From assembly GCA_946186375.1 (NCBI GenBank), contig CAMHMZ010000001.1:248001-312000 (forward strand): DNA of 64,000 nucleotides, in the 5' to 3' direction. Both the position numbers and the translations under genes were made by a program. The number at the start of each line of letters is the position of its first letter. The first letter of the stretch is position 1. Positions 9,070 through 47,930 of this stretch are shown in pieces. A model generated the notes under the pieces. It saw only the letters and a program-made list of their open reading frames with translations, searched no databases and had not been told where the DNA came from. The stretch comes from an uncultured Clostridia bacterium (GTDB taxonomy: Bacteria; Bacillota; Clostridia; Oscillospirales; Oscillospiraceae).

Positions 9070-9155
9070 GATCTGATCAGATAGCATATGTCATGTCTGC
9101 AGTTTGCGGTGTGTTGGGTATCCTGTTAGCCGTACTGCGAGCGTTCGTTGGATAA
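9066..9155 (+). CDS. very small membrane peptide (29 aa)
   Basis: ATG 9066 overlaps the previous stop (ATGA), and GGAAAGGAG precedes it. The peptide is a single hydrophobic helix (AYVMSAVCGVLGILLAVL) between short polar ends. Such peptides are often missed in annotation. The next gene's AAGGAGG starts right at its stop. Function unknown. Confidence 0.55.
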   Translation: MRSDQIAYVMSAVCGVLGILLAVLRAFVG

Positions 9156-9165
9156 GGAGGAAATC

Positions 9166-9990
9166 ATGCGTAACTACAGCAATCCGTGGGCAGAGAAAGA
9201 CTCCCGCAAAGAAATGGCTGTGGAACACACCGCGAAAATGGCAGAGCTGTACGATGAGCAGATCGAGCATTCGATCGAGGCTACCAAGCAGTACTTCGCG
9301 CCGACTGAAGACTACGTTGTTGAGCCGCGTCTTGCGACTCTGCACGGCGTCTTGCCGGAAATCGAAGTTGTGCAGATGGACTCTGTCCAGGCCGCAATGA
9401 AGTTCATAAGTAACAACAAAACGGCCATTCTGGATTTTGCCTCGTACAAGAGTCCAGGCGGTATGTTTCTGGAAGGGAGCATGGCGCAGGAAGAAGCGCT
9501 TTGCCACGAATCCTTTTTGTTCAATGTTTTGTCTTCGGACAGGCTTGTGAAAGAATTCTACGAACCGAATCGCAAGCGTTTGAACAAGTCCCTCTATCAC
9601 AGCAACGTGCTCTACGTTCCTGATGTGCTCTTCGAGCACAACGAGACGGTTAGCGTAAATCATGTTTGCGAGAGGTTCTCGTTTGATGTAATTGTGGCTG
9701 CTGCGCCAAATAAAGGCGCTGCACAGGAATACCAGAACGTTTCTGATGATGTGTGTGATGCAGTTATGCGTCACCGCATTCGGATGGTTTTGGCTGTGGC
9801 AGAGAAGGAAAAAGTGAAAACGCTGATCCTTGGCGCCTTTGGATGCGGTGTCTTTAAAAACGATCCTGAGACCGTTTCTCGCATTTTCCGTGAGGAATTG
9901 CGCGGCCGCCCGTACAGAGCTGTTTTTGCCGTGCCCGGCGAGAAGTACAACACCTTTCGTTCCGTGCTGGGGTTAGTCGGAAACGCATAA
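9166..9990 (+). CDS. bacterial-type PARG / macrodomain protein (274 aa)
   Basis: AAGGAGG before ATG 9166. Motifs of the TIGR02452/bacterial PARG family are clear: LDFASYKSPGGMFLEGS, then the catalytic AQEEALC (tandem Glu), and GAFGCGVFKNDPETV near the C-terminus. The family removes ADP-ribose from proteins or nucleic acids. On mobile elements such enzymes can counter ADP-ribosylating toxins or defence systems (inference). Last gene before a strong terminator. Confidence 0.85.
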   Translation: MRNYSNPWAEKDSRKEMAVEHTAKMAELYDEQIEHSIEATKQYFAPTEDYVVEPRLATLHGVLPEIEVVQMDSVQAAMKFISNNKTAILDFASYKSPGGMFLEGSMAQEEALCHESFLFNVLSSDRLVKEFYEPNRKRLNKSLYHSNVLYVPDVLFEHNETVSVNHVCERFSFDVIVAAAPNKGAAQEYQNVSDDVCDAVMRHRIRMVLAVAEKEKVKTLILGAFGCGVFKNDPETVSRIFREELRGRPYRAVFAVPGEKYNTFRSVLGLVGNA

Positions 9991-10143: not shown

Positions 10144-13100
10144 ATGCCTTATAAACGTTTAATTTCATTCATCTTGTCTTTCGTAATGCTGATCAATTTG
10201 ACATTTCACTCTGGTGCGCCGGCAGGGAAGGCTTATGCGGCAGATGCAGAGCAGAATCTTGCTGCAGATCTGGAGTCAAAGGAAGATATTGACGCATTGC
10301 TGAAAAAGCTTGATATCCCTGGAAAAATCAAAGACGCGGTGCTTTGCATTGCAGAAAGCCAGATCGGATACGCAGAGAGTGAGACAAATTATATTGTCGA
10401 TGGCGATGCTGAATTCCATTATTCTCGCTACGGGCAGTGGTTCGATATGCCGTATGCTGAATGGGACTCGTTGTTCGTCCTTTTCTGCATATGCAATGCG
10501 CTGCATTGTGAGGCGGCAGACGTGCTGTGGAATGCCAGCACAAACAAGTGGATAAAAGCTTTGGAGAAAAGCGAATATTTAACTGAGCCTGGCGAAAAAT
10601 TGGCATCTGGGGATATCGTGTTCTTCAAAGATGGGGATTTGCTCACAGTTGGTATTTTGCAGATGAGCGGAGAAGAGGATCCGAGTTCAGATGTGATGCG
10701 TTGCATCCATCGTGATGGCAGCGGGTCAGTTGCTGCAACAGACTTCGAAGCCAAAGATATAGAGCATCTGTTAAACCTGGAGGCGATTTACGCATCATTG
10801 ACCCAAGAAGAAACGCCGGTAGATGAAGCCGCAGCGGAAGTGCCGTCAGATATAGACGAAGCGGCTCAGGAGACTGACGAAACGGTGTGTCAGACCGAAG
10901 ATGCCGAAAGTGAGACAGCAAACGCCTCCGATACGGACGCCGACGACATCGAGAGTAAAGACGCCCAGAAAAGCGAAGACTCCGAAGCCGGTGAGAGCGG
11001 CGAAGGTGATGAGACGCAGTCGGAAGAAACTGAAACAGATGAAAACACCGAAGTGGCAGATGATGATGCCGGTCTTGATACCAACACGGAACAAACCGAG
11101 ACCAAAACTTCCGAGGCCGCCAATGTAGATAATGACGTTCAAAGTGGTGATGAAGACTCGGCGAATGATGAGGGTTCGACAGACAACGAAAACAATGACG
11201 ATCAGGACACAGAACACGGGGAAGATCCGCTGAATGATAATACGACAGTTGTGGACGCAGATCCCGAGGCAGGTCAGGATGTTTTGGGACCGGATGAGGA
11301 GCAGGAACCCGTGAGCGACGTCGAGGGCGCGGAACAAGACGCTGACAAAGATTCGAATCAAGATGACGGTGAGACCGCCGATGAAGAGACTGAACAAGAG
11401 GAAGGTGGGCTTCCGGATGACACAGTGGAAGAGAGCCCGGAATCTGATGGTGGCCAGGATGTGCTGGATACTGTAAGCGAACAGGGCGCCGATAATGAGA
11501 CGTCGACCGAAGATCCAAGCGAGCAGCCTGGTGAGGATGTTGGAGGCAGTCAAGAAGAATTTGCCGAACCTGAAGACGGCGTGCCATCCGATGACGCTGA
11601 TGATGAAGTCGAGCAGGGCAGCAACACGGAGCAGCAGAGCGAGGAAGATGAGTCGCTCGCTGGCGGCGCGGATGATAGCGCTATCGGAGACGAAGGCGGT
11701 CTGAGTGAAGAGACGACTGATGCAGAAGGCGCTCCCGCCGATGAAAGCGGCGAGACTGTTACAGAAGGCGCTCCAGAAGAGAGCGCTGGCCAGGAAGAGC
11801 CTGAAGATCAGGCTCAGGAAGAGGATGTTTCTGACGTTGATGAGCCAGCCGAAGAGGCTGCGGAGATTGAGCACATCATCTTCGATGAGCGAGGTATTCA
11901 TATATATAATTTCGAGCAGCTGCGTCTGATCGGTTCAAATAAACGTGTAAAGGACTCGGATTGGGACCCGGATCAAATCAGCAAGGGGAAATCGGTCACT
12001 GACGATTCCGGGAAAGCTGTTAAATATGCGTTAGACGCAAAATACTATTTTGAAAACGACATTTTGTTCCCTGACGGAGAAGTATGGTCGCTTCCAGAGA
12101 ATTTCTCCGGCTCTTTTGACGGAAACTTCAAGAAAGCAGATACAAAACGTCTCTTTGATGAGAATACAGATACGATCTACATCCAGAATTCCTATGAACT
12201 CATGGCGATCAACGTAGACAACAGAGATGAGTTGCCTCTGATCTCCGGAGATATTGATATAAACACATTTGGAATTGGAAATATCATTTTCCCGTCAGAT
12301 GAAAGTGCTGGTTATGTGACATACAGCGGTAATCATCATTACGTGTTATCCGCCTCGTTCACAACCGTTGGCCGGGAGCGGGTCAAGAAGCTTCTTGGTG
12401 GCCCGCTGAAGGCCCCGTCCAGTGGAAATACAAATGACGATCTGATAAACGGCAGAGACTGGTTCGGCCAGCCGACCGTAGATATTGACGGTACGACATA
12501 CATTCTGATCGGTGACCGGCAGCAGCTCGATGCTATTAACGATGCAACTACGACCAACACAACAAATGTTTACGGCCCTGTATATGCTGTGCAGCAGACT
12601 TATACAAGGACGGGAACGCTGAAGTTGGAATGGGTGGATAACCCGGATACAGCTGTTCTGGTATACCCAGGTGATGCCGACCTGGTATCTGATGTGTGGA
12701 CCGGTGAAGAACAGGTAGACTTCTCGGAGAAGAAGCTGTTCGGCCGGGCTAATGTGGGACACATTCTAAGCGGCGACGACAGATATGATTATCGAGACCT
12801 CGGTACAGAAGGTGGCAACCTGATCGTCGGAAGCACGCGTATCGTATACTGCGCGACCGATTGGAACGGCGGTTACGATACGAGCAAGCATTCGAATAAC
12901 GACAACCGAGTGTCCGCGACTCTGACATATGCGAAAAACGGCAATTACATTGTTTTCCGAGACATCGACATGCAGAAAACAGACGCAGAGAACAAGATCT
13001 GGAAGCCTCTGACATTTACTGGAACAATGTATGGCGTAAAAGCTGAAAACGATGATGATGTCAGCACGCTGTGGGACGCAAACAAAACCGCGTTGCAAAT

Positions 13101-16100
13101 CGATACTGACAGGAAGCCGATCATTCATGACTTTACGGTAGAGCCAAAAACGCTTACTCAGCTCGGGCAGGTCCGTTTGGACTTGAATGAGCAATCCGGC
13201 GTTGGGTTCTTCTCAACACTTTCTGGCGACCACAGCAGTTCTTCGATCATTGTTGATCCTGTGGTTGTGAAGAATATCCGTCTCGAAAACGGCGTGATCA
13301 ACAACATGACTACGAAAGCAGACATTGACCAGTCGGTGGTAAACTTGCTGCTTGTCGGATTGGGGACGGCTCTCGGTTTGATTCTCGATCCGGTTCTGAA
13401 GCTTTTGCTGAGCAAGGATGTCGGCGTCAGAGAGATGTTGTTAGGACTTCTGAATGCAAGGGCAAAAGATCCGTCGTCCTTGGCAACCGGAGCTTTCGCC
13501 GGACGTATTATCGGCGACGCGATCATCGAGGATTGCGAAGTCTCCAACATGTCGGTCAACACCATTCAGACGGAATATGAGCAAAACGGAAAGATCGTCG
13601 GTAAAGGCGGTTTTGTCGGCTACGTAGAAGGGGAGACCAAGTACGATACGCTGAGTCTTCTCGTCGGCGGCGTCGGAGATGCTTTGTCAGGAGTTTTGAA
13701 CCTGATACCAGGCGTCGGCCTTGGGGACTTGATCAAAGTTCTTCTGGACAACGCGCTGCCTCTGAAAAACCTGATTCCTACCGGATATAACTCTCCGGTT
13801 TTGACACGATGCGTTGCTGATGACATCACACTCTCTACAGAAAGCGGGAAGTACGGTGTCGGTGGGTTCGCCGGAAGTGCCTGCGGAACCATTATGACAG
13901 ACTGTAGTTTGACCGGCAGTGACGTGACCGTGAACGCTGATTTCTTTGGCGGTGGTTTCATCGGTGTCATTCGAGACGCCATCATCAAGGGAACACTCAC
14001 CGACCTCGGCGTGGATATCGGATCTCTGCATCCGCAGAGTGAGATGATCCGTTGCAATATCGTTGGCAGCGACGTACATTCTCGCGGTGTCACCTATATC
14101 GGCGGTTTTGCCGGTGCCATGCTGGACAGCTACGCGATCAACTGCTCGGTTGACGAGACCAGCACGATCGACGTAGACGCGACGGGCAATTATGTCGGCG
14201 GTTTCACAGGTTTGGCCCATTTAGGAACGGTCTTTGATTTCGGTTCTTATCTGGAAGAAAGCGATTCATTGCTCAGCACGGTAAAAGGCCTTGTGACAGG
14301 CTTGCTGGGCAACGGCAGTGACCAATCTCTGCTGGATGTCGGCGGTGTGGCGCCGTCTGCCATTATGGGCCTGCAGATGTGGGGTCCGGTATCCGTCGAG
14401 TCTGACGGAGCATTTGTCGGTGGAATCGTTGGACGAGGCAACGGCGTTCTGATAACAAGCTCGTCGCCGGAGAACCTCCGGAAGTTGGGTAAATACGACA
14501 CGATGAGAAATGGTGTTTACCGAGATCCGCTTCCGATTTCGCCGAATGAAGAGCGAAATAATTATGTGCATCAACTGGTCAGCGTAAATGCTGGACATGG
14601 GATTGATGTTTATGAAGAAGATTCTTTTGTTGGCGGCATCGCCGGCTATTTGACATCCGCGAACATTGGCGGTCTTCTTGGAGACACGGCCGGTGTTGGG
14701 CAGTATCTCGGGTTCACATTGTGTGATACGACAGTCGAAGGTGTAGCTGATGGCTATACCGTGTACGGAGACGGCGAATACGTTGGCGGCGGTATTGGCT
14801 GGGCGGTTGGCGGAGATGTATACGACACAGATCTGCAGAAGCTTGGCAGTGTTTCAGGGAACAACCACGCGGGTGGCTTTGTTGGCGCCACCGGTCCGGG
14901 AGACTTAGTGAACGGCAGCGGCCTTGACTTGACTCTGCTCGGTATTCAGCTCATCAGCATCGACAACCTGCTGTCTCTTGTTTCCGGCGTGCGTACCACT
15001 TATGAGAATGTAGACGTCGTCGGTGTTGAAAGCGGGTTCACGGTTGAAGAGCGCGGATTGCAGGAAAACGGCGATCAGCGTGAGTATGTAGCCGGTGGGT
15101 TTGCCGGCGAGGCAAACAGCGTGCGCATCGTCGACGGCAGAGTCAAGAACCTGCTGAGCGTAACAGCAAATATGCAAGATGGTGCTGCTGGCGGTTTTGT
15201 TGGTGCTTCGAGCGCCGGCGGTCTTGCCGGTGTAGCTAAGAACAACGACACGTTGTCTGTGGCGCAAATCGGCAACCTGGTCAATGCGGTTCCTTATCTG
15301 GTGCCGTCCTATGACGGGTGCGACGTCACCTATGTGGATAGCGGCTTTGTTATGGGCGACACTGCCGGTGGTTATGCTGGCGACTTCCAAAGTGGGAAGG
15401 TGAATACCTATTCCGTTGACGGGATCAACCCGATCCGCGATGACGACGACCCGGAAAGAACGAACTGGCCATATGAAGTTGGAACCGTGGCTGTTCCTTG
15501 GGCAGTAAACAACATCCACCATGTCCGCGGAGGCAACTACGCGGGCGGTTTTGGAGGAAAGGTTTACTCCGGTGCTTTGGTGAGCGCAGGCGGTGGATTG
15601 AGCGTATTGGGCGGTATGAGCAATATCAGCCTGAACGTTCAAGACTTGCTGAGTGTCGCATCTGGGTATGTCCCGATCATCAAGTATGCGGGCGTGAACA
15701 CCTGGTCTAACACACAGAAGGGCTTTACTGTGCTCGCTGCACAGGACTACGGTGCAGACGGCAGTCCGGCAACTGAGGGCCATGCGGGCGGCTTTATTGG
15801 CTACGGAAGCGGTGTTCAAGTGTCGTACTCCGATGTCAATAAGCTAAGACACGGAAACGTCACGGAACCGAACCCGCTGGAAGGGAAGGACGGAAGCTCG
15901 TACATGGTGTACGGCACAGCACCTGACGAAATCCCGTACGCTGTGGCAGGCGCAGAATACGCAGGTGGCTATATCGGCTATATGGATGTCGGCACGGCAG
16001 CGTCCCTTGGCGGTGGCCTTAAACTTCTCGGTAACTCCATCTCGCTCACCAACGTACTCGATGCTCTTAGCGTGGTTGTTTCCACAATTGAGCATTCCGA

Positions 16101-19100
16101 CGTATACGGAGCCCCTGGTGGTTTCAATGTCCTGGCTACCAGCCACGCGCTGATGGCTGACGGACAGTACGACAGTAAGGGAATCGGCTATTCCGGCGGC
16201 TATGCCGGTAAGATCTCCGGTGGCCATATCCAAGACGGTAACGTAGAGCTTTTCTACTACATCGTTGGTGAGATCGCTGCCGGTGGTTATGCAGGCGAAG
16301 CTGAACCCGGTGATGCGGCGAAGATCCTGAATGATGAGAGTAGCCTAAGCCTTCTCGGAAACGTGAACTCTCTGGCATCGCTCGTCCAGGACTTCGTTCC
16401 GACGATCCGAAACAGTCAGACAACCTGTGTGCCTTGCGGCGGAGCCGTGAGAGCGCAGTGCTTCTCTGACGGTCTTGCCGAAGGCAATGTTGTGCGTGGC
16501 ATGGCGGGTGGCTACATCGGTCATGCAAAAGGTGCTCAGATCTGGGGTATGGACAGCCACGTCTGGAAAGAGCAGAACAGCGAAGCTGACCTTCTCGGAA
16601 AGATGACAAGAGGCGCGTACACAGGGGAGAAGCGCGAATGCGCAGCCATTCGTATTCGTTCTGTTTACGGTGCGGAATACGCAGGCGGCTACGCTGGCCT
16701 CATGGAGTGCGGCAGCACAGCGCAGACAGGAGGGCTTAGCTTGCTGGGTGGCCTTATCAGCGCAGACAACCTCCTGGGCGCTCTGAACGCTGTATACCCG
16801 ACCGTTCACTACGGTGCGGTCTATGGCCCGCTGGAGGGTATTGACGAAGCAACATGGAACGCCTGGAAGCAGTACGTCGGCGCCTATGGCGGATTTTCAT
16901 CTGAACTGGCAAAAGCTGATTTTGATGAATTAGAAAACTTTATTTATGGCTACCACGTTGTGGCTGGCCGCGATGAATATGATCCGTACACGACAACCGT
17001 TCTAAGCGGATGTGCTGGCGGTTTTGTCGGCTCAATGCACAGCGGTTCCATTAAAAACAGCCATGCAGAAGATGCCAAGTTGGTGACTGCTATGCGTTCT
17101 GCCGGTGGTTTCGCCGGTGAGATGCAAACAAAAGGTCTTGCGGAATTTGGCAGCGTAAATCTTCTGGGAGATGCGCTCAATCTGAACCTGGGCAATCTGG
17201 TAAAGGTCGCGGATGTATTTGTGCCGTCTATTTCGGACTCAGGTACGAACGGCTATCAAAGGGGCTTGACCGTGCAGGCGTTCGGCGACAAGCAGTATAA
17301 CGGTGTTGGCTGCGCCGGCGGCTATGTTGGCGCGGCATACGGCGCTCAGTTAGGCATTGAGCACGAGATCGAAGGGCCGAGCGTATGGATTCGCGGTTTG
17401 AAGTCTGTAAAGGGGACAAATACTGTTGGTGGTTTTGTTGGAAAAACGGCTGCTGCATCTGTGCTTAATGCAGACACTTCCAACGCAAGCAGTGGTTTCC
17501 TCCAGAAGGTGTTAGACAAGCTGATTTCGACACCGAACAGTCTGGTGGACGTTTTGAATGCGACGCTGACGACCATCAAGCATGCAGAAGTAGATGCGTC
17601 AGATTCCGAATGGGGTCTGGTTGTCGAAGGTGATGACGCAAACTTCACGGGCGGTTTTGCCGGTTCGCTGGAAGCTGTGGTAGTTGGCGAGCGGAACAAG
17701 CCGGAGGACACCATCGTAGTGAATAATCTCCGGAGCGTCAAAGGCGGTTACTATGCGGGCGGCTTCTTCGGCTTGGCCGATGTAGGCAGTGTTGCTCAAG
17801 TTGGCGGAGATGATGGGACAGGAACCAACACGAACATTCTTGACCTGATCCAGGCTGGAAACATCAGTGTTTTGGACGCATTCAGAACCTATGTCTATCA
17901 CGCCACAGTAAACGGTGTGCCTGACGGAATCACTGTGACAGCTGACAAATACAATGGCCGCGGCACAATGAGCACTTATCAGGAAAGTGGCGCGGCTGGC
18001 GGTTTTGGCGGCGGCTTAATGAACGGCACGGTGGAAAACTCTGTCGTGAACGGGGTTAATACAGTAACAGCGCCGAACTATTCTGCTGGTTTTATCGGCT
18101 ACATGGGCAAAAACGGCGGTGTCAGCGTAGATGAAGCCAAAATCACAGATGATAGCGTCATCGGGAAGCTCCTGTCCGCTCTCGGATTAGATTTAGGGGC
18201 AAACGCGCAGTTGCTGAATATTGTGGGATCCACAGTGAAAAACTGTTCTGCTTCTGGTATCAGCAGGGGGATGGTAGTGCAGGCAACTCGCTTCCAGCAT
18301 CCGATTGCCGGCACCGTTTCCGCAGAAGATATCACTGGCGCCTGTGCAGCAGGATTTACAGGATTTGCGGATATTTCGCAGATCGACAACTGCACAGTAG
18401 ATAATTTAAAGCTTGTGAAGAGCCCTCAGGTGGCAGCCGGATTTATCGGACGCTCGTCGATGGCATACATTGCGGATATCGACGTGAGTTCCGGTTTGAC
18501 TGCGGTGATTGTAAAGATCGTCAACGCTTTGGTGAAGATTCTGTATTTAGACGAGCTGTCGAATCTTGATCTTTTGAGTCTGGAGCTGCCGAGCGATTTA
18601 CTTGGTTTGAAGCTTTTGTCTGATGGTGATTTGCTGTACGTGAACCTGCTTGGATTAAAAATCGGTGTATCATTGCTGAAAAACGATCCGGAATACAATT
18701 CCGACGCAGTGATGGTCACGATAGGCTCATCCACAATTAAGCTTCCATGCGATGAAGACGGAATCAAGGGCGAGACGCCGGATTTGACGATCAACTTATT
18801 TGAAGGGAATCGTACATCCGTCAAAAACAGTACTGTTACGGGAATTACACGTGGATATGACGTATTCGCTGGCGGTTCCGCGCAGGACAAAGATCCTGTG
18901 AATTCTGAAGGCTTCGCTGGTGGCTTCATTGGATACAACAACAACGGTTTTCTCTCTCATAACCGCATGTGGCTTTGCGATATTGTAAAAGGAAATCAAG
19001 GCGAGATTGGACCGTTTACTGGCTATACGAAAGCAAACACGCGCCCAGTTTCGTATCTGGAAGGCACAGACAATATGTTCAGCATCTATCGCAGCAGCGA

Positions 19101-19914
19101 ACCATCGCTCACGGAAGCTGATACCGAAAACAACGAAAAAATTGCAGATGCTTTGGATGACACAATCGAAGGCACAAGGTATAACAGATATGATGTAACA
19201 CATTTGGCTGTGATCAAAAACCATGAAGACCTGGCGCGCGCGTACGAAAAAGGTTCTGGCATGCGCCGGAATTTGAATGCGTACACGGCCACATCCGCCA
19301 AATTGATGTTGGATCTGCCGGTAACGCTCAACCCGGAAAGCGAAACTGTAGCGCCGGATGAATTGAAAGACCCTTGCGAGGAAGAATTCGATCTCCACGT
19401 AAACAAGAAATGGCGCGATTATGGCAACTTACTGAACACACGACCTGATAGTATCACGATAAAGGTCTATCAAGTGGACGCGGGGAAAAATCCTCCGAAT
19501 AATTTGGTTGTGAACCTGCTGCCGGAGTCCGGCGGGGAGGTAATCAACACTTATCTGCTCACACTTGAGCCGAATGAAAACAGCGAGATCCACTGGCGCG
19601 GTGTTTTGGAAGGCTTACCGATAGCATACATGGCTGAGGTTGAACAAGACGGGCAGAGTACGGAAGAGCTGCATTACTATCAATATGTTGTCGAAGAGCT
19701 TCCCGTAGAAGGTTATGAAATGCCACAATACGAAGTAATTGAGAGCACTGCGAGCGTAACGATAATCAACACATACAAAGACCTGCCTCTGCCGAACAGT
19801 GGGGGAGCGGGCACATCGATTTATCTGCAAACAGGCTTTATGATGTTTGTGGTCGGAATTGCTCTTGCGTTGAACGCCAAACGCAAGAGAATTCCGATGC
19901 CGAACAAGGAATAA
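10144..19914 (+). CDS. giant LPxTG-type surface adhesin (3256 aa)
   Basis: ATG 10144 follows AGGAGG. Order: signal peptide (1-34); a CHAP/NlpC-like domain (about 55-165) containing FHYSRYGQWF and AEWDSLFVLFC, where the usual catalytic Cys after Trp is Asp; a very acidic, disordered stretch (220-575); a long array with about 30 GG[FY]-x-G motifs (GLUG-like, roughly 690-3030), each often followed by a hydrophobic LLSLVSGV-type helix; a Cna_B-like domain (about 3110-3210); LPNSG at 3216-3220; membrane helix and KRKR tail. LPNSG has Ser in place of Thr. Likely the tip or accessory adhesin of the pilus made by the next genes. Confidence 0.9.
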   Translation: MPYKRLISFILSFVMLINLTFHSGAPAGKAYAADAEQNLAADLESKEDIDALLKKLDIPGKIKDAVLCIAESQIGYAESETNYIVDGDAEFHYSRYGQWFDMPYAEWDSLFVLFCICNALHCEAADVLWNASTNKWIKALEKSEYLTEPGEKLASGDIVFFKDGDLLTVGILQMSGEEDPSSDVMRCIHRDGSGSVAATDFEAKDIEHLLNLEAIYASLTQEETPVDEAAAEVPSDIDEAAQETDETVCQTEDAESETANASDTDADDIESKDAQKSEDSEAGESGEGDETQSEETETDENTEVADDDAGLDTNTEQTETKTSEAANVDNDVQSGDEDSANDEGSTDNENNDDQDTEHGEDPLNDNTTVVDADPEAGQDVLGPDEEQEPVSDVEGAEQDADKDSNQDDGETADEETEQEEGGLPDDTVEESPESDGGQDVLDTVSEQGADNETSTEDPSEQPGEDVGGSQEEFAEPEDGVPSDDADDEVEQGSNTEQQSEEDESLAGGADDSAIGDEGGLSEETTDAEGAPADESGETVTEGAPEESAGQEEPEDQAQEEDVSDVDEPAEEAAEIEHIIFDERGIHIYNFEQLRLIGSNKRVKDSDWDPDQISKGKSVTDDSGKAVKYALDAKYYFENDILFPDGEVWSLPENFSGSFDGNFKKADTKRLFDENTDTIYIQNSYELMAINVDNRDELPLISGDIDINTFGIGNIIFPSDESAGYVTYSGNHHYVLSASFTTVGRERVKKLLGGPLKAPSSGNTNDDLINGRDWFGQPTVDIDGTTYILIGDRQQLDAINDATTTNTTNVYGPVYAVQQTYTRTGTLKLEWVDNPDTAVLVYPGDADLVSDVWTGEEQVDFSEKKLFGRANVGHILSGDDRYDYRDLGTEGGNLIVGSTRIVYCATDWNGGYDTSKHSNNDNRVSATLTYAKNGNYIVFRDIDMQKTDAENKIWKPLTFTGTMYGVKAENDDDVSTLWDANKTALQIDTDRKPIIHDFTVEPKTLTQLGQVRLDLNEQSGVGFFSTLSGDHSSSSIIVDPVVVKNIRLENGVINNMTTKADIDQSVVNLLLVGLGTALGLILDPVLKLLLSKDVGVREMLLGLLNARAKDPSSLATGAFAGRIIGDAIIEDCEVSNMSVNTIQTEYEQNGKIVGKGGFVGYVEGETKYDTLSLLVGGVGDALSGVLNLIPGVGLGDLIKVLLDNALPLKNLIPTGYNSPVLTRCVADDITLSTESGKYGVGGFAGSACGTIMTDCSLTGSDVTVNADFFGGGFIGVIRDAIIKGTLTDLGVDIGSLHPQSEMIRCNIVGSDVHSRGVTYIGGFAGAMLDSYAINCSVDETSTIDVDATGNYVGGFTGLAHLGTVFDFGSYLEESDSLLSTVKGLVTGLLGNGSDQSLLDVGGVAPSAIMGLQMWGPVSVESDGAFVGGIVGRGNGVLITSSSPENLRKLGKYDTMRNGVYRDPLPISPNEERNNYVHQLVSVNAGHGIDVYEEDSFVGGIAGYLTSANIGGLLGDTAGVGQYLGFTLCDTTVEGVADGYTVYGDGEYVGGGIGWAVGGDVYDTDLQKLGSVSGNNHAGGFVGATGPGDLVNGSGLDLTLLGIQLISIDNLLSLVSGVRTTYENVDVVGVESGFTVEERGLQENGDQREYVAGGFAGEANSVRIVDGRVKNLLSVTANMQDGAAGGFVGASSAGGLAGVAKNNDTLSVAQIGNLVNAVPYLVPSYDGCDVTYVDSGFVMGDTAGGYAGDFQSGKVNTYSVDGINPIRDDDDPERTNWPYEVGTVAVPWAVNNIHHVRGGNYAGGFGGKVYSGALVSAGGGLSVLGGMSNISLNVQDLLSVASGYVPIIKYAGVNTWSNTQKGFTVLAAQDYGADGSPATEGHAGGFIGYGSGVQVSYSDVNKLRHGNVTEPNPLEGKDGSSYMVYGTAPDEIPYAVAGAEYAGGYIGYMDVGTAASLGGGLKLLGNSISLTNVLDALSVVVSTIEHSDVYGAPGGFNVLATSHALMADGQYDSKGIGYSGGYAGKISGGHIQDGNVELFYYIVGEIAAGGYAGEAEPGDAAKILNDESSLSLLGNVNSLASLVQDFVPTIRNSQTTCVPCGGAVRAQCFSDGLAEGNVVRGMAGGYIGHAKGAQIWGMDSHVWKEQNSEADLLGKMTRGAYTGEKRECAAIRIRSVYGAEYAGGYAGLMECGSTAQTGGLSLLGGLISADNLLGALNAVYPTVHYGAVYGPLEGIDEATWNAWKQYVGAYGGFSSELAKADFDELENFIYGYHVVAGRDEYDPYTTTVLSGCAGGFVGSMHSGSIKNSHAEDAKLVTAMRSAGGFAGEMQTKGLAEFGSVNLLGDALNLNLGNLVKVADVFVPSISDSGTNGYQRGLTVQAFGDKQYNGVGCAGGYVGAAYGAQLGIEHEIEGPSVWIRGLKSVKGTNTVGGFVGKTAAASVLNADTSNASSGFLQKVLDKLISTPNSLVDVLNATLTTIKHAEVDASDSEWGLVVEGDDANFTGGFAGSLEAVVVGERNKPEDTIVVNNLRSVKGGYYAGGFFGLADVGSVAQVGGDDGTGTNTNILDLIQAGNISVLDAFRTYVYHATVNGVPDGITVTADKYNGRGTMSTYQESGAAGGFGGGLMNGTVENSVVNGVNTVTAPNYSAGFIGYMGKNGGVSVDEAKITDDSVIGKLLSALGLDLGANAQLLNIVGSTVKNCSASGISRGMVVQATRFQHPIAGTVSAEDITGACAAGFTGFADISQIDNCTVDNLKLVKSPQVAAGFIGRSSMAYIADIDVSSGLTAVIVKIVNALVKILYLDELSNLDLLSLELPSDLLGLKLLSDGDLLYVNLLGLKIGVSLLKNDPEYNSDAVMVTIGSSTIKLPCDEDGIKGETPDLTINLFEGNRTSVKNSTVTGITRGYDVFAGGSAQDKDPVNSEGFAGGFIGYNNNGFLSHNRMWLCDIVKGNQGEIGPFTGYTKANTRPVSYLEGTDNMFSIYRSSEPSLTEADTENNEKIADALDDTIEGTRYNRYDVTHLAVIKNHEDLARAYEKGSGMRRNLNAYTATSAKLMLDLPVTLNPESETVAPDELKDPCEEEFDLHVNKKWRDYGNLLNTRPDSITIKVYQVDAGKNPPNNLVVNLLPESGGEVINTYLLTLEPNENSEIHWRGVLEGLPIAYMAEVEQDGQSTEELHYYQYVVEELPVEGYEMPQYEVIESTASVTIINTYKDLPLPNSGGAGTSIYLQTGFMMFVVGIALALNAKRKRIPMPNKE

Positions 19915-19953: not shown

Positions 19954-21417
19954 ATGAAAAAGATGAAGAAACTCATTAGTGTCCTTATGGCACTGACGAT
20001 GGTTCTGGCATGTGCGGTTACAGCTTTTGCTGCAGATCCCGGTTCCATCACGATCGCCGATCCCGGCGACAAGACCTATGCTGCGTACAAGATTTTTGAC
20101 GCAGCCGACGATGGAAACGGAAATGTTTCCTACTCAATCGCAGCCGACAGTGAGTGGCTGCCCGAAGTATTTGACGTCGCCACTGGCGAGTCCAAGGTTG
20201 TTGGCCTCGAGTTCAGGGCTGATGCTGACCCTGCGACCAAGTACGAAGTCATCAAGCGTGACAGCTTCAGCGCTGCAAACTTTGCGGCTCAGATGAAGGC
20301 TGTTGCTGACGGAAAGACTGCCGCTGCCGATATGGATGCTCTGGATCCCGGCTACTACATGGTGATCCCCAGTGCCGGCGAGTTGGCCTCTCTGACCACT
20401 GTCCTGGCAGGCCAGAATGTAACCGTCCAGAACAAGAACGACATGCCTTTTGACAAGCATGTTGACGATGTAAAGCTTGAGGACGTTGAGGTTGGCCAGG
20501 TTGTCAACTTCAAGCTTGAAGGCAAGGTTCCTGAGCTCGACGACGAGACATTCTTCGTTTACAGCGTAAGCGATATTATGGATGAAGGCATCACCTTCAA
20601 CGGCGATGTTGTTGTCAAGATCAATGGCGTTGAAGTCAACATGGAGGAGATCACAGACGCAGAAGCTGTTCTGTCCGGCGACCAGATTCGTTTTGGTAAG
20701 AACGGTAAGACCTTCGAACTGTCTCTGGCTATGCTGGAGCGCGGCAAGGACGCAGATCTGCAGGGCAAAGCTATCGAGATCACCTACTCCGGTACGATTA
20801 ATGAGGCTGCTGTTTCCGTCATTTCCGAAAACAAGGCTGTCCTGACCTATGGTAACCACCCCGATCGCCTCATCACGAAGGACACTGAGGCGAAGGTTTA
20901 CAGCGCCCGCATCATCATCGACAAGTTCGAGACTGGTGCTCGTGAGCAGAAGCTCGCAGGTGCGAAGTTTGTGCTGAAGAACGCTGACGGCAAGTTCTAC
21001 AAGTTTGTTGAGGCTGACCCCACTGCGGATCCTGCTGTGATCGCTCATGTTGAATGGGTAGACGCTCAGGCTGACGCGACTGAGGTTGAGACCGACACAA
21101 ACGGCAAGGCTGAATTCATCGGCCTGAAAGATGGCGCATACAAGATGACCGAGACTGCTGCTCCCGCCGGCTACACCAAGCTCACCGACGACATCGACAT
21201 TACGATCGATGGCGAGAAGGCCACTGCTGTTGGTCTGACCGCTGAGCAGATCACTCAGGCTCTGACTGAGATCACCAACGTAAACAACACCCCCGGAACC
21301 ATGCTTCCTTCCACTGGTGGCATTGGTACGACCATTTTCTACATTGTCGGCGCGATTCTGCTCGCCGCAGCGGCTGTGTTCGTGTTCTCGAACAAGAAGC
21401 AGCCCGAGAAGCAGTAA
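19954..21417 (+). CDS. SpaA-like major pilin (487 aa)
   Basis: GAAAGGA before ATG 19954. Signal peptide ends at TAFAADP. An N-terminal pilin domain, a middle domain beginning PFDKHVDDVKL (candidate pilin-motif Lys), and a C-terminal Cna_B/SpaA domain with the E-box KMTETAAPAGY, all suited to isopeptide bonds. LPSTG at 451-455 is followed by a membrane helix and KK tail. Codon use is cleaner than in its neighbours, fitting high expression. Substrate of the class C sortase downstream. Confidence 0.92.
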   Translation: MKKMKKLISVLMALTMVLACAVTAFAADPGSITIADPGDKTYAAYKIFDAADDGNGNVSYSIAADSEWLPEVFDVATGESKVVGLEFRADADPATKYEVIKRDSFSAANFAAQMKAVADGKTAAADMDALDPGYYMVIPSAGELASLTTVLAGQNVTVQNKNDMPFDKHVDDVKLEDVEVGQVVNFKLEGKVPELDDETFFVYSVSDIMDEGITFNGDVVVKINGVEVNMEEITDAEAVLSGDQIRFGKNGKTFELSLAMLERGKDADLQGKAIEITYSGTINEAAVSVISENKAVLTYGNHPDRLITKDTEAKVYSARIIIDKFETGAREQKLAGAKFVLKNADGKFYKFVEADPTADPAVIAHVEWVDAQADATEVETDTNGKAEFIGLKDGAYKMTETAAPAGYTKLTDDIDITIDGEKATAVGLTAEQITQALTEITNVNNTPGTMLPSTGGIGTTIFYIVGAILLAAAAVFVFSNKKQPEKQ

Positions 21418-21490: not shown

Positions 21491-22351
21491 ATGAAAAAAA
21501 GATTAGGGAAAATAGTTGTTGTTCTTTTGATGCTGTTGGGAGCGATGTTCATGCTCTATCCGACAGCAAGTGATTATTGGAATAAGCGGCACCAATCCGG
21601 CGCAATCATGGAGTATGCCGAAGCCGTTAAAGCTCTGGACAACAAAAAGTTCAAAGAGATGTGGGATCTTGCCGTAGAATACAATTATTATCTCAATCTT
21701 CTGTCACGCGGTGTCGAGACAGGGCCATATCCGCTGCCGCCCTATGAAACGATTCTCGACGTATCCGGGAATGGCATGATGGCGTACATTGACATTCCAA
21801 AAATCAAGGTCCATCTTCCGATTTATCACGGAACAGATGAGGGCGTATTACAGAGTGGTGTTGGCCATTACGAGACGAGCTCTTTCCCTATTGGTGGAAA
21901 TTGCACACATTGTGTTCTGACCGGGCACACAGGTTTACCGAGCGCAAGGCTTTTCACTGATTTGGACCAAATAAGAGAAGATGATATTTTCATCATAGAG
22001 ACACTTGGTGAAGTTTTGACGTACAAAGTTGACAAAATCAAAATCGTATGGCCATACGAAACGGACGACCTCCTGATCGAGCAGGGTAAGGATTATTGCA
22101 CGTTGGTAACATGTACGCCTTACGGAGTAAACGATCATCGTCTTTTGATTCGCGGAGAAAGAATTGAGACGACGGAAGAGGTTATTCAGGCCAGAGAGAC
22201 CGCCGTGCCTATCGAGCAGCGGATCGAACCGATGTATATTGCGTTGGCTATAGTCGGCGTAATATTTGTCGCGATCATCATTCTGGCTTTACGGCCGAAG
22301 AAAAAAGAGGTGCAAGAAGATGACAGCAAAGAAAGGGAAACAAATAAATAG
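21491..22351 (+). CDS. class C (pilus-polymerising) sortase (286 aa)
   Basis: N-terminal membrane helix, catalytic LTGHTGLP (His), TLVTCTPYG (Cys) and DHRLLIRG (Arg), and a second C-terminal membrane helix (IALAIVGVIFVAIIILAL), the class C layout. Polymerises LPxTG pilins through Lys side chains. The lid region before the catalytic domain has PLPPYETILD rather than a textbook DPF/DPW motif. Overlaps the next gene by 32 bases. Confidence 0.92.
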   Translation: MKKRLGKIVVVLLMLLGAMFMLYPTASDYWNKRHQSGAIMEYAEAVKALDNKKFKEMWDLAVEYNYYLNLLSRGVETGPYPLPPYETILDVSGNGMMAYIDIPKIKVHLPIYHGTDEGVLQSGVGHYETSSFPIGGNCTHCVLTGHTGLPSARLFTDLDQIREDDIFIIETLGEVLTYKVDKIKIVWPYETDDLLIEQGKDYCTLVTCTPYGVNDHRLLIRGERIETTEEVIQARETAVPIEQRIEPMYIALAIVGVIFVAIIILALRPKKKEVQEDDSKERETNK

Positions 22352-23654
22352 GCTATTATCTTCGTTGCTTATTCTGGTGTTTGCCTTGCTTATCACATGC
22401 AGTTGTGCATATGCAAACGAGGCAAATCCGACGATAAAATTAACGGCTTCTGACGGTGATGAGCGTATTGCCAACATGGGTTTTGATATGTTCCGCATAG
22501 CTGAGATCGACATGCTTGGAAATATACAGCCCTTGCCACCGTTTGAAGATTTCAATGTGAATGAGAACCTGATAAACGGGACAATGGATGATTTGGCCAA
22601 GAGCGTTTCGGAATACTGTGAGAGTAACGAGCTCACTCCAGACACATCTCTTGTGACGAATCGAAACGGCACTGCATCTGGCTCGTTAGAAAAAAACCGT
22701 TACTATCTGGTTGTAGGCCGCGACTTAAAGACGGAAAACGCCGTTTATTCTTCGCTGCCATTCATCGTGAGCGTACCGCATTACGACAGTGAGACTCAGC
22801 AGACAGTGTTTGATGTCAGTGCCTTCCCCAAGATCAGTAAAACTGAGATTGTTGCACCGACTCCGACACCGGAACCGACACCGACCCCAACGCCTTCTGT
22901 TCCGCCGTCTCCCGGCCCCACGCCGACGCCACCGACTCCTCCTGATGACAAGCTTCCTCAGACAGGCGTATTATGGTGGCCGATCCCTGTTTTCTTGATT
23001 CTTGGCGTTTCATTGATTTCGGTCGGTCTTTTAAAAAGCGGGATCAAAATCAAAACGATCGCGATATTCATGAGTGTGTTCTTAGGCTTGATCCTATTGG
23101 CCGCTGCAGTATTGCTGACGGCGTATAACATGCTCGACGATATGCGGGCGGCAAGAGTGTCAAGAGAAGAAGGTTCGGCTATCATGGCTGCAATACTCAG
23201 TGATACGAGCGCGAACAAAGACGTAGGTGAAGGCGACGAAGAATATAAATACATGCCTATCAAAACGATAGATGGTGTGGATTATGTTGCCATGCTGTAC
23301 ATCCCAAAGCTTGAACTTGAGCTCCCGGTAAGAAGCGAAACAACTTATCCTGGTCTTGACAAATCTCCGTGCTTATATAGTGGCAGTGCGTACATGAACG
23401 ATTTGGTGATTTGCGCACACAACTATTCGCAGCACTTTGGGAGAATTAAAAATCTATGGAAAGATGATGATGTGATGATTTGTGATATGGACGGCAACAT
23501 GTTCTATTACAAAGTATCACATGTAGAAATACTGAGTCCGTATTCCGTAGAAGCTGTAAAAAACTCCGAATACGATTTAACGCTGACAACGTGCACGATT
23601 GGCGGTGCCAGGCGTGTGGTTGTAAGATGTTTCGCGGCGGACGAAGGCACGTAA
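22320..23654 (+). CDS. fusion of minor-pilin domain, LPQTG signal and sortase (444 aa)
   Basis: Start ATG 22320 with AGAGGTG seven bases upstream. Order: signal peptide (about 1-33); a pilin-like N-terminal domain (37-175, with GSLEKNRYYLVVG as in SpaA/FimA pilins); Pro/Thr-rich stalk (180-208); LPQTG at 212-216; membrane helix (218-237); second membrane helix (246-268); then a sortase domain (322-440) with His367 (CAHN), Cys425 (TLTTCT) and Arg431/432. So a complete sorting signal sits inside a protein that continues into a sortase. Last gene of the locus. Confidence 0.88.
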   Translation: MTAKKGKQINRLLSSLLILVFALLITCSCAYANEANPTIKLTASDGDERIANMGFDMFRIAEIDMLGNIQPLPPFEDFNVNENLINGTMDDLAKSVSEYCESNELTPDTSLVTNRNGTASGSLEKNRYYLVVGRDLKTENAVYSSLPFIVSVPHYDSETQQTVFDVSAFPKISKTEIVAPTPTPEPTPTPTPSVPPSPGPTPTPPTPPDDKLPQTGVLWWPIPVFLILGVSLISVGLLKSGIKIKTIAIFMSVFLGLILLAAAVLLTAYNMLDDMRAARVSREEGSAIMAAILSDTSANKDVGEGDEEYKYMPIKTIDGVDYVAMLYIPKLELELPVRSETTYPGLDKSPCLYSGSAYMNDLVICAHNYSQHFGRIKNLWKDDDVMICDMDGNMFYYKVSHVEILSPYSVEAVKNSEYDLTLTTCTIGGARRVVVRCFAADEGT

Positions 23655-23660
23655 AAAAAA

Positions 23661-23690
23661 GAGGCACGCTTTTTGCGTGCCTCTTCTTTG
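23661..23690 (+). terminator. bidirectional terminator between convergent genes
   Basis: Nine-base stem GAGGCACGC / GCGTGCCTC with a T5 loop, A run before and T-rich tail after, between the sortase fusion and a reverse-strand gene. Confidence 0.85.
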
Positions 23691-23704
23691 TTTTTGGTAC
23701 TGCA

Positions 23705-26540: not shown

Positions 26541-26664
26541 TTTCTTCATAGCATTGTTTCATTAATGCATCAAAAAATTCACGAGCACTCCAAAACGCAA
26601 AGAAAGGGCGGTGAACGGCAATCCTTGCTAAGCTGAACAAACATCAGATTAGTGTTTGCCTTGT

Positions 26665-29193
26665 ATGGACGAAAACAAACAGAACAATTTAAAACCGTTG
26701 TGCACCGAAAACAATGTTGTCCACGAAACTTATTATGGGCGGATCCACAGGGCACAGTTCAAGGTCGGCGGGGAAGTGAAGGCATGGGACATCATGCATA
26801 TCGAGATCCCGTTCAACCCTCAGAAAGAAGCCGAACTTATGCGCAGGTTTGGGTTGGAGCGAGATGATCTCGGAGAGTTTTACAAGCACTTCTCCCAGGC
26901 CGTTATCAACCATGTTCGGGTTAATAAAGCAGCCCTGTTAAAAGACGAGAACGGGCAAGTGGCTAAGTCGGTCGTTAGATATAATGCGGTAAGAACATTC
27001 AAGCGTTTTGACAAAGAAGGCCATCCTGAAGGAACTGATATTTATTTTATTTCAGAGCCGATGGAACCGTTCACGAAATCCGACATGTTCGCGCTGGATA
27101 AGCTTACGGTGAAGAGCATAGACCAGATCGCACTGCGGCTTATGCAGACGCTGAAGACGATGAACGACCGCGGATTGACGCTTGGCGGCATTGATCTCGA
27201 TTCTTACTATTTGGTGGATGATCCTGCATCCGGGAAGAAGTTTCTGAAAGCCGGCTATTTCTTTTATGGCTCAGCTGACGGTCTTGGCGCGGATGAATAC
27301 ACACAGGACATTGCGCCGTTCATCAGCGAGAATATCGCATCAAACACGAACGCTCAGAACAGGCAGAGCGACATGTATATGCTCTGCAAGTTACTATGGG
27401 GCTTGTACAGTGGCTGTCATTATACTGTTCCGGGAGATCTTTCCAAGGCTCCGGTATATGCATCACAGGAGATCAGTGATGCTTTGTATGCCGGCTTAAC
27501 GTATGACGAAGGTGCTTATAAGCGTCTAAACGCAGCTATCCGCGCTCATATAAAGCAGATCGAAAGCGGTGCGTTAGAAGATAAGAGCGTTGAGGTTGAA
27601 AGGCCGTACTACCTGGACCTGCCGCTGCCTGAGTTAAGGTATGTGGAACCTGAAGAGACACCGGACGAACAAACTGATGCAGACCAGGATGAAACAAAGA
27701 AGAAACGCAAGCCAAGGAAAGGCTCATTCATTTTCCTAGGAATCGTCCTTATCGCGCTCGCTGCCGCACTTTATTCTCCGATAAAGTACCTGGTGGAATC
27801 ACGGAGGAACATGCCTGAGCAGCCCGCAAATACGGAAATAGAAAAAGATGACAGCATGAGCAGTAAGAGCGACCTGTACATCCTCAACGGAACCGTTGTG
27901 AATAGTTCTGGAATGCCCGTATCTGTTTGCGAGTTAGATGGGGACGGCAACATCGTCTACCTGGCTGCAGTTGGATATGAAGACAACCGCGCCATCTTAT
28001 ACGACAAGGATCATTGTGTAGACTACGTTGTCGCAGATGACTGTAAGCCGTCCTTCACGCAGACCTACTTCGGCGTAGATGAAGAAGACTATCTGATCCT
28101 CAAAGAGGGCGTCGCAGACCTTAGAGGCGAGAAGCTGAAATTTAAGGGTGACGGACAAACGACTGAGATTTCGGCAAAATTGATCGATAAATACAAAATC
28201 GACGAATCAACGAACATTTTGCTGAAAGACAGCAAAGGAAACGACGTTATTGCCTTTGTGCGCAAGGTCGACGCGACAGCATCAGATAAGTCGGCGCATT
28301 ATTTCGCAATGGAGAACGAAAACGTGACGCTGCGAGACCTGATGCGTGTAAAAGGCGAGTGGTGGTATGATGTGTTCTTGACTGTATCGCCAAAAGACGT
28401 CACAAACAAGAAGTTCAAGCTGACGACGGATGATGAAAACGCTTTGGTGTTCGCCGTTCCGGACGGGGAGGAATACCTGCTTTCCCGCGCATTAAATGTA
28501 ACTGTCAACAAGAGCGGAAGAGCCGAGTTCACTGTGCTCGGGATGCTGGAAGGGCGCTTCACATTTACGGTCGAATCCGATGATGGATTGTACAAGAAAA
28601 AATTCGCTCTGACATTTGAGCCAGATATGGAAGCGCTGCCAGCAGAGAACCAGTCAGAAACAGAAGAGCCTGGTGAGGATGAACAGCCAGCCGTGACTGA
28701 AGAGCCGGTACAGCCAACAGAGACTCCTGCTGTGGTTATTGAGACGATGCCTCCGACGGACACGCCGGTTCCGGCAGAAACGACGACTCCGGTAGAAACC
28801 CCGAAGCCAACACCTACGCCGTGGCCAACGCAGCGCCCTGTGGAGACTATCGTTATAACGCCAACTCCTGCTCCTGCCCAGACACAAACGCCGGTCAATC
28901 CTCCGGCGCCGTCATCGACGCCGTACCAGCCGGTCGAAACAGAATTTGAGCCGACGTTCACGATCGATAAGAAGAAGGTTTCTTTGGCGATAGGAGAAGA
29001 AACAACGCTTTATCCATCAGAATCTTTCATCGTCAAAAAGATCGATCCGCTGGATGTAATAGATGCGCAGAACACGAACGGCGTTCTGACGGTCAAGGGT
29101 TTGAAGGCTGGAACGTGCAAGATCACGCTGTCCTGCACACATGTGGATCTGTTAGGCAAAGAGCTGACGATCACCATAACGGTCAAAAAATAG
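26665..29193 (+). CDS. membrane pseudokinase with Big2-like ectodomain (842 aa)
   Basis: Start ATG 26665 (TTG 26656 also possible); neither has a clear ribosome site. Residues 20-300 look like a Ser/Thr-kinase fold: MQTLKTMNDRGLTLGGIDLDSYYL sits where the HRD catalytic loop should be, without its His and catalytic Asp, no DFG is seen, and SDMYMLCKLLWGLYSG matches the kinase F-helix. Then a KKKRKPRK stop-transfer, one membrane helix (353-377), a novel extracellular part, a Pro/Thr-rich stalk (656-759) and a C-terminal Big2-like domain (763-842). Probably a signalling or scaffold pseudokinase rather than an enzyme. Confidence 0.75.
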   Translation: MDENKQNNLKPLCTENNVVHETYYGRIHRAQFKVGGEVKAWDIMHIEIPFNPQKEAELMRRFGLERDDLGEFYKHFSQAVINHVRVNKAALLKDENGQVAKSVVRYNAVRTFKRFDKEGHPEGTDIYFISEPMEPFTKSDMFALDKLTVKSIDQIALRLMQTLKTMNDRGLTLGGIDLDSYYLVDDPASGKKFLKAGYFFYGSADGLGADEYTQDIAPFISENIASNTNAQNRQSDMYMLCKLLWGLYSGCHYTVPGDLSKAPVYASQEISDALYAGLTYDEGAYKRLNAAIRAHIKQIESGALEDKSVEVERPYYLDLPLPELRYVEPEETPDEQTDADQDETKKKRKPRKGSFIFLGIVLIALAAALYSPIKYLVESRRNMPEQPANTEIEKDDSMSSKSDLYILNGTVVNSSGMPVSVCELDGDGNIVYLAAVGYEDNRAILYDKDHCVDYVVADDCKPSFTQTYFGVDEEDYLILKEGVADLRGEKLKFKGDGQTTEISAKLIDKYKIDESTNILLKDSKGNDVIAFVRKVDATASDKSAHYFAMENENVTLRDLMRVKGEWWYDVFLTVSPKDVTNKKFKLTTDDENALVFAVPDGEEYLLSRALNVTVNKSGRAEFTVLGMLEGRFTFTVESDDGLYKKKFALTFEPDMEALPAENQSETEEPGEDEQPAVTEEPVQPTETPAVVIETMPPTDTPVPAETTTPVETPKPTPTPWPTQRPVETIVITPTPAPAQTQTPVNPPAPSSTPYQPVETEFEPTFTIDKKKVSLAIGEETTLYPSESFIVKKIDPLDVIDAQNTNGVLTVKGLKAGTCKITLSCTHVDLLGKELTITITVKK

Positions 29194-42444: not shown

Positions 42445-42475
42445 CGTGCGGGGAGGGTTCCTCGCACGTTTTTTT
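42445..42475 (+). terminator. rho-independent terminator
   Basis: CGTGCG / CGCACG arms with inner GGA/TCC pairs and a T7 tail. Confidence 0.85.
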
Positions 42476-42496
42476 CATGCAAAACAAGTCTTTTGG

Positions 42497-42525
42497 TTGA
42501 CGGAGACGTGTCCAGAACGTAATAA
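42497..42525 (+). promoter_or_regulatory. promoter of pilus locus 2
   Basis: TTGACG, 17-base spacer, TAATAA, located between a terminator and the adhesin gene. Confidence 0.6.
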
Positions 42526-42565
42526 ATATCTGGCAAAGCAAAGAGAAAACGAGGGAGGTGAGGCT

Positions 42566-46609: not shown

Positions 46610-47855
46610 GAAAATCTTTGCAGCATTCATGGCCATGGTCTTGATTGTTGCAACGGCAGCAACTGCGTTTGCTGTCACGCCTGACATGGCTGCCGCAGGA
46701 ACTTACGGCGCCACCAACCAGGTTCTCACAGAAGGTGTCAACCTGAAGAAATCCATCGTTTTCATCAACCCGGACGACAAGGCTGTTTACGAGCCGAACA
46801 TTACGTTCAACTATGCCGTATCGTCCCCGGCAAGCGTAACTGCAACTGTTACGGATGCCAACAACAGATCAGCCGCTGTTAAGCCTGGCCCTGCCGGCGG
46901 TCTTTCCGTGGCTCCTTCTGTGAGCTTCAGTGCTAGCAACGATATCGTTGCGGCGACTGCTGCCGGATACGAGCTATCTAAGAACATCGCACTGTCTGTT
47001 GATCTCAGCGCATTCCAGTCCGCTGGTGTATACCGCTACAAGATCTCTGAGTCTGTTGCCTCTGCAGATCTCGCTGCAGCGGGTCTGCTCCGTTCGGAAA
47101 ACTATGTTTCTGACAGATACGTTGACGTTTACATCAAGAACGACAACGATGCTCTGGCGGTTTATGGCTTCTCCTGCTTCGAGGGTAACGACAACACAAG
47201 CCTGACAAGCGAGTCCACGAATAAGAGTGCTGGCTTTGTTCAGGGAAGCGATCTGAACGACGTTGATGTGTACTACACATACAATGTAAGCGTAAAGAAG
47301 GTCATCGATGGAACTCTGGCTGATATGCTCCACTCATTCCCGTTCTCCATCAGCGTAACCGGTTCTGACAACGCAGCGAAATATCAGTACAAACTTGCTG
47401 ACGCGAACGCGAACACGGACGCTCTTGTTGGCGGTGCCGCAATCGAGCAGGCTCTCGGCCACAACAAGCAGATCGAGATCTACGGTCTGCCTGCCACTGC
47501 GAATATCGCCGTGTCTGAAACAAACAACACCGCCGACTCCTACTCAGTCGTGATCAGCAATGACATGTCTGGTGCTGTTAAGGCCTACGCGGACGCAATT
47601 GCTGCTGGTGGTAGTGCTGCTCTCAGCGACGCCGCTGTTGCTGTTACCGATTACTCTGCGGCTGTCGTAGCAAGCGTTGCTGCAAGCCAGCAGAAGTACG
47701 GTGCGATCCGGTTCACAAATAGCCTGGATGCTGTTTCTCCGACTGGCGTCGTTGTCCGTTTCATGCCTTACGCTCTGATGTTCGGCATGGCATTCTATTT
47801 CTTCTTTGTTACTAAGCGCGACAAGAAGGAAGAGGAGCAGACTGCAGCTCTCTAA
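46593..47855 (+). CDS. pilin-like surface protein with SPTG-type sorting signal (420 aa)
   Basis: GAAAGGAAAG before ATG 46593. Signal peptide ends at ATAFAVTP. The body looks like two pilin/Ig-type domains (SIVFINPDDKAVYEPNITFNYA; then YTYNVSVKKVIDGTLADMLHSFPFSI). The end reads AVSPTGVVVRFMPYALMFG, a membrane helix and KRDKKEEE tail. This resembles the QVPTGV-type signal of Clostridia pilins rather than LPxTG, and should suit the class B sortase in this locus. Codon use suggests high expression. Confidence 0.8.
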   Translation: MKKISKKIFAAFMAMVLIVATAATAFAVTPDMAAAGTYGATNQVLTEGVNLKKSIVFINPDDKAVYEPNITFNYAVSSPASVTATVTDANNRSAAVKPGPAGGLSVAPSVSFSASNDIVAATAAGYELSKNIALSVDLSAFQSAGVYRYKISESVASADLAAAGLLRSENYVSDRYVDVYIKNDNDALAVYGFSCFEGNDNTSLTSESTNKSAGFVQGSDLNDVDVYYTYNVSVKKVIDGTLADMLHSFPFSISVTGSDNAAKYQYKLADANANTDALVGGAAIEQALGHNKQIEIYGLPATANIAVSETNNTADSYSVVISNDMSGAVKAYADAIAAGGSAALSDAAVAVTDYSAAVVASVAASQQKYGAIRFTNSLDAVSPTGVVVRFMPYALMFGMAFYFFFVTKRDKKEEEQTAAL

Positions 47856-47878
47856 TCATTTTTCGCAACTATAAATAC

Positions 47879-47904: not shown

Positions 47905-47930
47905 TCGTCAAGAGATGAGGATGGTAGAAG

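Follow-up and report, generated by a model that had tools for sequence, protein, structure and literature searches.

Can a sortase and the substrate that it anchors be encoded in nature as a single polypeptide? The question is raised by an open reading frame in the window, a 64,000-nucleotide stretch (positions 248,001 to 312,000) of contig CAMHMZ010000001.1 from the draft genome of an uncultured Clostridia bacterium of the Oscillospiraceae. Sortases are known for picking substrates made elsewhere, whereas here one natural chain holds both substrate and enzyme. The original prediction had read this frame as a signal peptide, a pilin domain, a Pro/Thr stalk and an LPQTG signal continued in the same chain by a second helix and a sortase, and it does run as one open frame of 444 residues. 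Our results indicate that this is probably a genuine natural fusion, joining a basal-type minor pilin to a dedicated anchoring sortase, in which a cut between Thr215 and Gly216 would allow the pilin to cap and anchor the pilus. Its parts are as follows.

22320..23654, + strand: the fusion gene, encoding minor pilin, LPQTG, first transmembrane helix, loop, second transmembrane helix and sortase (444 amino acids)
22320..22415, + strand: signal peptide region, approximately residues 1-32 (by eye; model helix 2-30)
22431..22847, + strand: D1-type pilin domain, approximately residues 38-176 (structure model, fold search)
codon 22830, + strand: Lys171, near the end of the D1 domain
22833..22952, + strand: Pro/Thr stalk, residues 172-211, with 16 prolines in 40 residues (sequence; predicted local distance difference test score below 50 over most of the stalk)
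22953..22967, + strand: LPQTG sorting motif, residues 212-216
22968..23033, + strand: first transmembrane helix, residues 217-238 (model helix 221-241; hydropathy)
23034..23054, + strand: short Lys-rich loop KSGIKIK, residues 239-245, predicted cytoplasmic (three Lys, no acidic residue)
23055..23129, + strand: second transmembrane helix and start of a long outer helix, residues 246-270 (model helix 246-296; hydropathy)
23262..23636, + strand: sortase catalytic domain, residues 315-439 (Pfam, conservation, model)
codons 23418, 23592 and 23613, + strand: catalytic His367, Cys425 and Arg432

The predicted structure and a fold search both assign a D1 pilin fold to the pilin half, and its proline-rich C-terminal extension is of the kind that marks basal pilins. 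The sorting signal is complete, with an LPXTG motif, a hydrophobic stretch and positive residues. It reads LPQTGVLWW and thus lacks the Gly-x-Gly found in the backbone pilin (LPSTGGIG) and the giant surface protein (LPNSGGAG) encoded upstream. According to a review and a primary paper, Lactobacillus rhamnosus GG carries Gly-x-Gly in its class C sortase substrates and not in its basal pilins (PMC5536039, PMC8088525). By fold, tail and signal, the minor pilin of the original prediction can be specified as basal-type. The known basal pilins SpaB, SpaE, EbpB and GBS52 likewise combine a D1-type predicted fold and a proline-rich tail with a signal free of Gly-x-Gly; these are reported to be anchored by a sortase encoded separately, whereas the enzyme of the window protein lies in the same chain.

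The sortase half matches PF04203 with 59 bits against a curated cut-off of 26.6, and His367, Cys425 and Arg432 sit in columns that are 98% conserved among relatives, so that the domain is intact, as had been claimed. Sequence and structure model support an arrangement in which the two helices cross the membrane as a hairpin whose inner loop is rich in Lys and Arg, which would place pilin and sortase both on the outer side.

Genomes were searched in overlapping sets of 300 from the family, 101 from the genus, 394 from the order, 391 from the class and 398 from the phylum, and loci were fetched for only part of the matches. In these family-to-phylum sets, the DNA of the fetched loci, once read, had the homologues as pairs of adjacent genes, and a second fusion was not found. 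Among the loci fetched by then, 143 of 171 distinct sortases had a separate upstream partner, which carried LPQTG in 109 cases (consensus LPQTGQLWWPVP), and in these split pairs the median position of the pilin stop was 8 nt into the sortase gene, counted from its approximate start. In one pair from the same genus (L004), 3 bases separate the TGA that closes the pilin gene from the sortase ATG, and both genes are in the same frame. A profile search of a named genome collection, proposed from the outset as a check for this architecture, confirmed at least 585 relatives, and the best 80 of these included five stop-free fusions: L148 (uncultured Ruminococcus RUG14461), L149 (RUG198), L150 (RUG194), L151 (RUG328) and L171 (Lachnospiraceae RGIG3649, from goat rumen). 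Once these fused relatives appeared, we dropped the view that the window held a one-genome oddity. We take RUG to stand for rumen genomes, and the four RUG records may come from related projects. LPQTG and the catalytic His, Cys and Arg are identical in all six aligned fusions, although the search motif itself contained TG. The helices are joined by a loop with 3 to 7 Lys or Arg residues across the six, as expected of a cytoplasmic turn. By eye, a class C-like sortase is encoded upstream of the L148, L149 and L171 fusions; it is accompanied by a large surface protein in L148 and L149, and by an LPDTG protein and an LPETG pilin in L171.

Altogether, 211 distinct related sortases were compared beside that of the window: 5 are fused, 176 are split from a partner and 30 have no partner that we found, 4 of these 30 lying near a locus edge. 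Split partners are separate genes with an xxxTG signal directly upstream, in the same frame in 13 of the 176; the count may miss sortase frames below 110 amino acids and partners without [LI][PQEI]xTG. Since splitting is the rule, we regard the fusion as a lineage variant of a common two-gene module, and the suspicion raised with the original prediction, that homologues might always be split, did not hold. Further genomes from the genus and two other families yielded no extra fusion in the fetched loci. A motif-free look at 255 sortase frames found no fusion lacking the TG motif; 23 of the frames had at least 60 residues of open reading before the sortase and were judged by eye, their upstream letters reading as out-of-frame pilin. 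A scan of genome contigs with a single protein as query and a plasmid search with the L149 fusion gave no match.

Several candidates were rejected. Large open frames, such as those of G1113, G1080, G1090, G571 and G395, proved to be separate genes, out-of-frame reading or C-terminal extensions; a match in G131 spanning both halves without a stop is by eye a class C-like sortase gene; and the in-frame pairs L004, L044, L052, L058 and L084 are parted by a stop and are split genes. In L268, a close relative of the L149 locus, the class C-like sortase leads directly into the final portion of a second, closely related sortase. This locus was not counted as a fusion: the pilin and the remainder of the second sortase are missing between the two, which reflects either deletion or assembly collapse. 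Same-group sortases also lie in long frames of 520, 404 and 404 amino acids (L076, L077 and L078, respectively), with long C-terminal extensions visible by eye in L076 and L078.

A tree was built from 51 sortases, with 5 of the 56 intended rows absent from the input and a bootstrap that had not quite settled. The window sortase, the split L147 and the four RUG fusions form one clade (support 100/97), and L171 is placed elsewhere. The fused state requires three changes on this tree, at least two of them forced by supported branches, and we conclude from these placements that the fusion state clusters and has changed at least twice. Grouping the window sortase with those of the four RUG fusions to the exclusion of L147 was not rejected (approximately unbiased test, p-AU 0.35).

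These results bear on whether a base error or mis-join in the draft genome merged two genes, an outcome that the original prediction had itself named as grounds for abandoning it. The draft comprises 133 contigs and is 83.9% complete and 4.75% contaminated, and in the genus, where 15 of 102 genomes matched, the window genome alone is fused. In addition, the +1 frame after the first transmembrane helix ends at a TGA (23071) that overlaps an ATG (23070), as would be expected of split relatives. Against such an error, five other genome records are fused, four of them in the sortase clade of the window. In-frame coding of residues 239-250 scored best of the three frames (+3.1 versus -3.8 and +0.3 nats), in a comparison that was correct for 89% of 1391 gene stretches. 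The ATG at 23070 would leave 20 residues between the sortase start and the conserved Asn270, where relatives have a median of 28, and the fused frame supplies the Lys-rich start seen in those relatives. Four of 101 relatives are as short as 20 residues under automatic start choice, and at least two of these (L131 and L078) have a wrongly chosen start. By eye, no Shine-Dalgarno-like stretch precedes this ATG. As other fusions exist and the state changed at least twice on the tree, we consider a frameshift or assembly artefact extremely unlikely; the five other fusions settle the architecture, though not base by base for this genome.

The sorting signals of relatives point to a division of labor. 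LPxTGG.G occurs in 51 of 52 LPXTG proteins encoded further upstream in these loci (duplicates kept in the count) and in 0 of 143 minor pilins. In a set of 141 split and fused minor pilins, from which one very long row was dropped, Gln214 is kept in 122 and Trp220 in 127; Lys171, near the end of D1, is kept in 126 and may serve as the pilin-motif lysine that links to the next subunit. If the precursor were never cut, the pilin would stay tethered to the membrane sortase as a pilus docking site, and the two predicted helices could hold the chain in this way. The maintenance of the sorting signal, including Gln214 and Trp220, and of the catalytic triad is hard to explain without cutting, and we consider an uncut precursor very unlikely.

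We infer cleavage, action in cis and anchoring by analogy with known systems. In the known pathway (PMC5536039, PMC8088525), class C sortases build the shaft, and a housekeeping sortase carries and anchors the basal pilin, which has a proline-rich tail. By extension, the precursor would be secreted via its signal peptide, and the appended sortase, not the class C enzyme, would recognize LPQTG, cut between Thr215 and Gly216 and hold the pilin on Cys425. As in the known basal-pilin pathway, the class C sortase would then transfer the LPSTG backbone polymer, by its terminal Thr, onto Lys171, and growth would end when the appended sortase handed the completed pilus over to a cell wall precursor. 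Once cleaved, the enzyme half would remain held in the membrane by its two helices and could act again in trans. The role in ending the pilus at its base, put forward as a possibility in the original prediction, is thus supported as a likely one in termination and anchoring. The accompanying idea of a 1:1 ratio offers a weak reason for fusion, because a translationally coupled split pair could approach 1:1 too.

More tentatively, the fusion might be a self-loading terminator that cuts its own signal in cis and displays the pilin as an acyl-enzyme on Cys425, each molecule bringing its own anchoring machine; we hold this as possible though short of probable. If so, pilus length would be set by the expression of one gene, a housekeeping sortase would be unneeded, and the protein would be a natural counterpart, evolved more than once in Clostridia, of engineered sortase-LPETG fusions (BISOP), which cleave themselves (PMC2901362). 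These engineered proteins lend known support to self-cutting: there, too, a single chain carries a sortase together with the motif that it recognizes. BISOP is artificial, soluble and ordered sortase-LPETG-target, whereas the natural order is pilin-LPQTG-two helices-sortase.

Alternatively, the fusion may be real but an accident of packaging that serves co-expression only, LPQTG being cut in trans either by the same sortase on another copy of the protein or by a different sortase in the cell; split and fused forms would then work alike. Split pairs are far commoner, so a cis link is unnecessary for function, and the repeated change of state, together with a split member inside a mostly fused clade, suggests easy switching. 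The genome also holds 10 sortase hits: four of class C over the cut-off (L096, L097, L098 and L099), five with class B as best match (L101, L102 and the window gene at 48489 over the cut-off, L104 and L105 below) and the fusion. Nevertheless, none of the six fusions has lost its sorting signal or its catalytic residues, and proximity makes self-cutting plausible, as the engineered fusions illustrate; we therefore judge this explanation rather unlikely.

The interpretation as a natural fusion with a dedicated anchoring sortase must also be weighed against several observations. The fusion sortase reached the cut-off of no class model: it scored 39 bits against the class C model NF033745 (cut-off 160), its best NCBIfam score, 31 and 35 bits against the class D models NF033746 and NF058671 (cut-offs 165 and 140), and 32 bits against the class E model NF033747 (cut-off 160). 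It shares the operon type of class C pilus sortases, but a true class C enzyme is already encoded in the operon of the window. No class A sortase was called among the 10 hits of the genome, which is 84% complete. The closest sortase, that of L147, is split. Minor pilins were chosen by a motif ending in TG, so that Thr215 and Gly216 could not be counted and offer no independent evidence, and at least 15% proline before the signal was found in only 88 of 143 minor pilins, which means that the proline-rich tail is not universal. With TLxTC taken as a sign of a class C sortase, this motif lay within 1.5 kb upstream in 56 of the 85 loci that included 600 nt or more of upstream sequence, indicating that operon context varies or was cut off. 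Finally, three of 25 positions conserved at 90% or more are changed (A324 for G, D382 for G and T423 for F), and the fusion sortase has a long branch (0.81 and 0.95 versus medians of 0.37 and 0.5), which together make weakened function possible. These last two features could indicate a decaying copy whose sortase no longer works, but the frame is full-length, the catalytic triad, sorting signal and operon context are all intact, and decay seems highly improbable.

Among known systems, the nearest are the split minor pilin and sortase pairs of Bacillota (L147, L004 and L043, among others), which have homologous halves in the same order and a signal of LPQTG-x-L-W-W-P type; many follow a class C-like sortase gene within a pilus operon, as in the window. 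They remain two genes, mostly overlapping or nearly touching, whereas the window has one chain. Clostridium perfringens SrtD (CpSrtD, PDB 4d70) shares the sortase fold and, according to PMC4498605, prefers LPQTGS and shares an operon with an LPQTGS protein, which gives known support to the pairing of the appended sortase with an LPQTG pilin. The fusion sortase may work like this enzyme; CpSrtD, however, is distant in sequence (profile E 6e-11) and is described there as a separate gene with a proposed spore role. Among the matches listed from open-licence literature, none described a naturally occurring fusion of a sortase with a pilin or an LPXTG protein. Parts and pathway are known, and what appears new is the natural union of a basal pilin and its anchoring sortase in one chain. 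Because substrate and enzyme share that chain, a pairing that can seldom be read from sequence by itself, LPQTG and a basal pilin can be assigned to this unclassified sortase group, and the same pairing is suggested for the 176 distinct split gene pairs. Both the ending and anchoring of pili and the action of a sortase on its own chain in the membrane become directly testable.

The fusion is apparently the last gene of a pilus operon, which otherwise contains the following.

10144..19914, + strand: giant surface protein of 3256 amino acids with sorting signal LPNSGGAG (open reading frame list, C-terminus)
19954..21417, + strand: backbone pilin of SpaH/EbpB type with signal LPSTGGIG (PF16569, PF17802; NF033902 over cut-off)
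21491..22351, + strand: class C (pilin-polymerizing) sortase (NF033745, 255 bits against a cut-off of 160)
23659..23695, + strand: intrinsic-terminator-like hairpin with an 11-pair stem and T-rich tail, just 3' of the fusion gene

The start of the fusion gene overlaps the end of the class C sortase gene by 32 nt. Hairpin sites of the terminator type occurred at chance level (4 found versus 4.1 expected in shuffles), so that only the strong stem and the position count for the hairpin. The giant protein, probably a tip or other class C sortase substrate, had no Pfam match at E 0.001 and resembles, by eye, the large proteins whose genes precede the fusions in L148 and L149. Its gene is adjoined upstream by that of a protein with a microbial-type PARG (poly-ADP-ribose glycohydrolase-like) domain (9148-9987). 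Downstream of the operon, an 845-residue protein (26656-29190) has a membrane segment and a Pro/Thr-rich stretch by eye and no Pfam match.

A second sortase with an extra domain is encoded in the window at 48489-49703. This class B enzyme is over the cut-off (TIGR03064, 175 bits), and its C-terminal part matches the FILTED domain NF052597 (55 bits against a cut-off of 40). Around it lies a second surface-protein cluster (42446-51411) with a 1387-residue Listeria-Bacteroides-repeat protein, a DUF7601 protein and two signal-peptidase-like proteins, one recognized by eye only. Elsewhere in the genome (L105:1288-2573), the gene of a class B-like sortase below the cut-off is overlapped by that of a small Pro/Thr-rich protein with VKTGDTNNIL before a hydrophobic end, and the two are possibly an enzyme-substrate pair in the opposite order.
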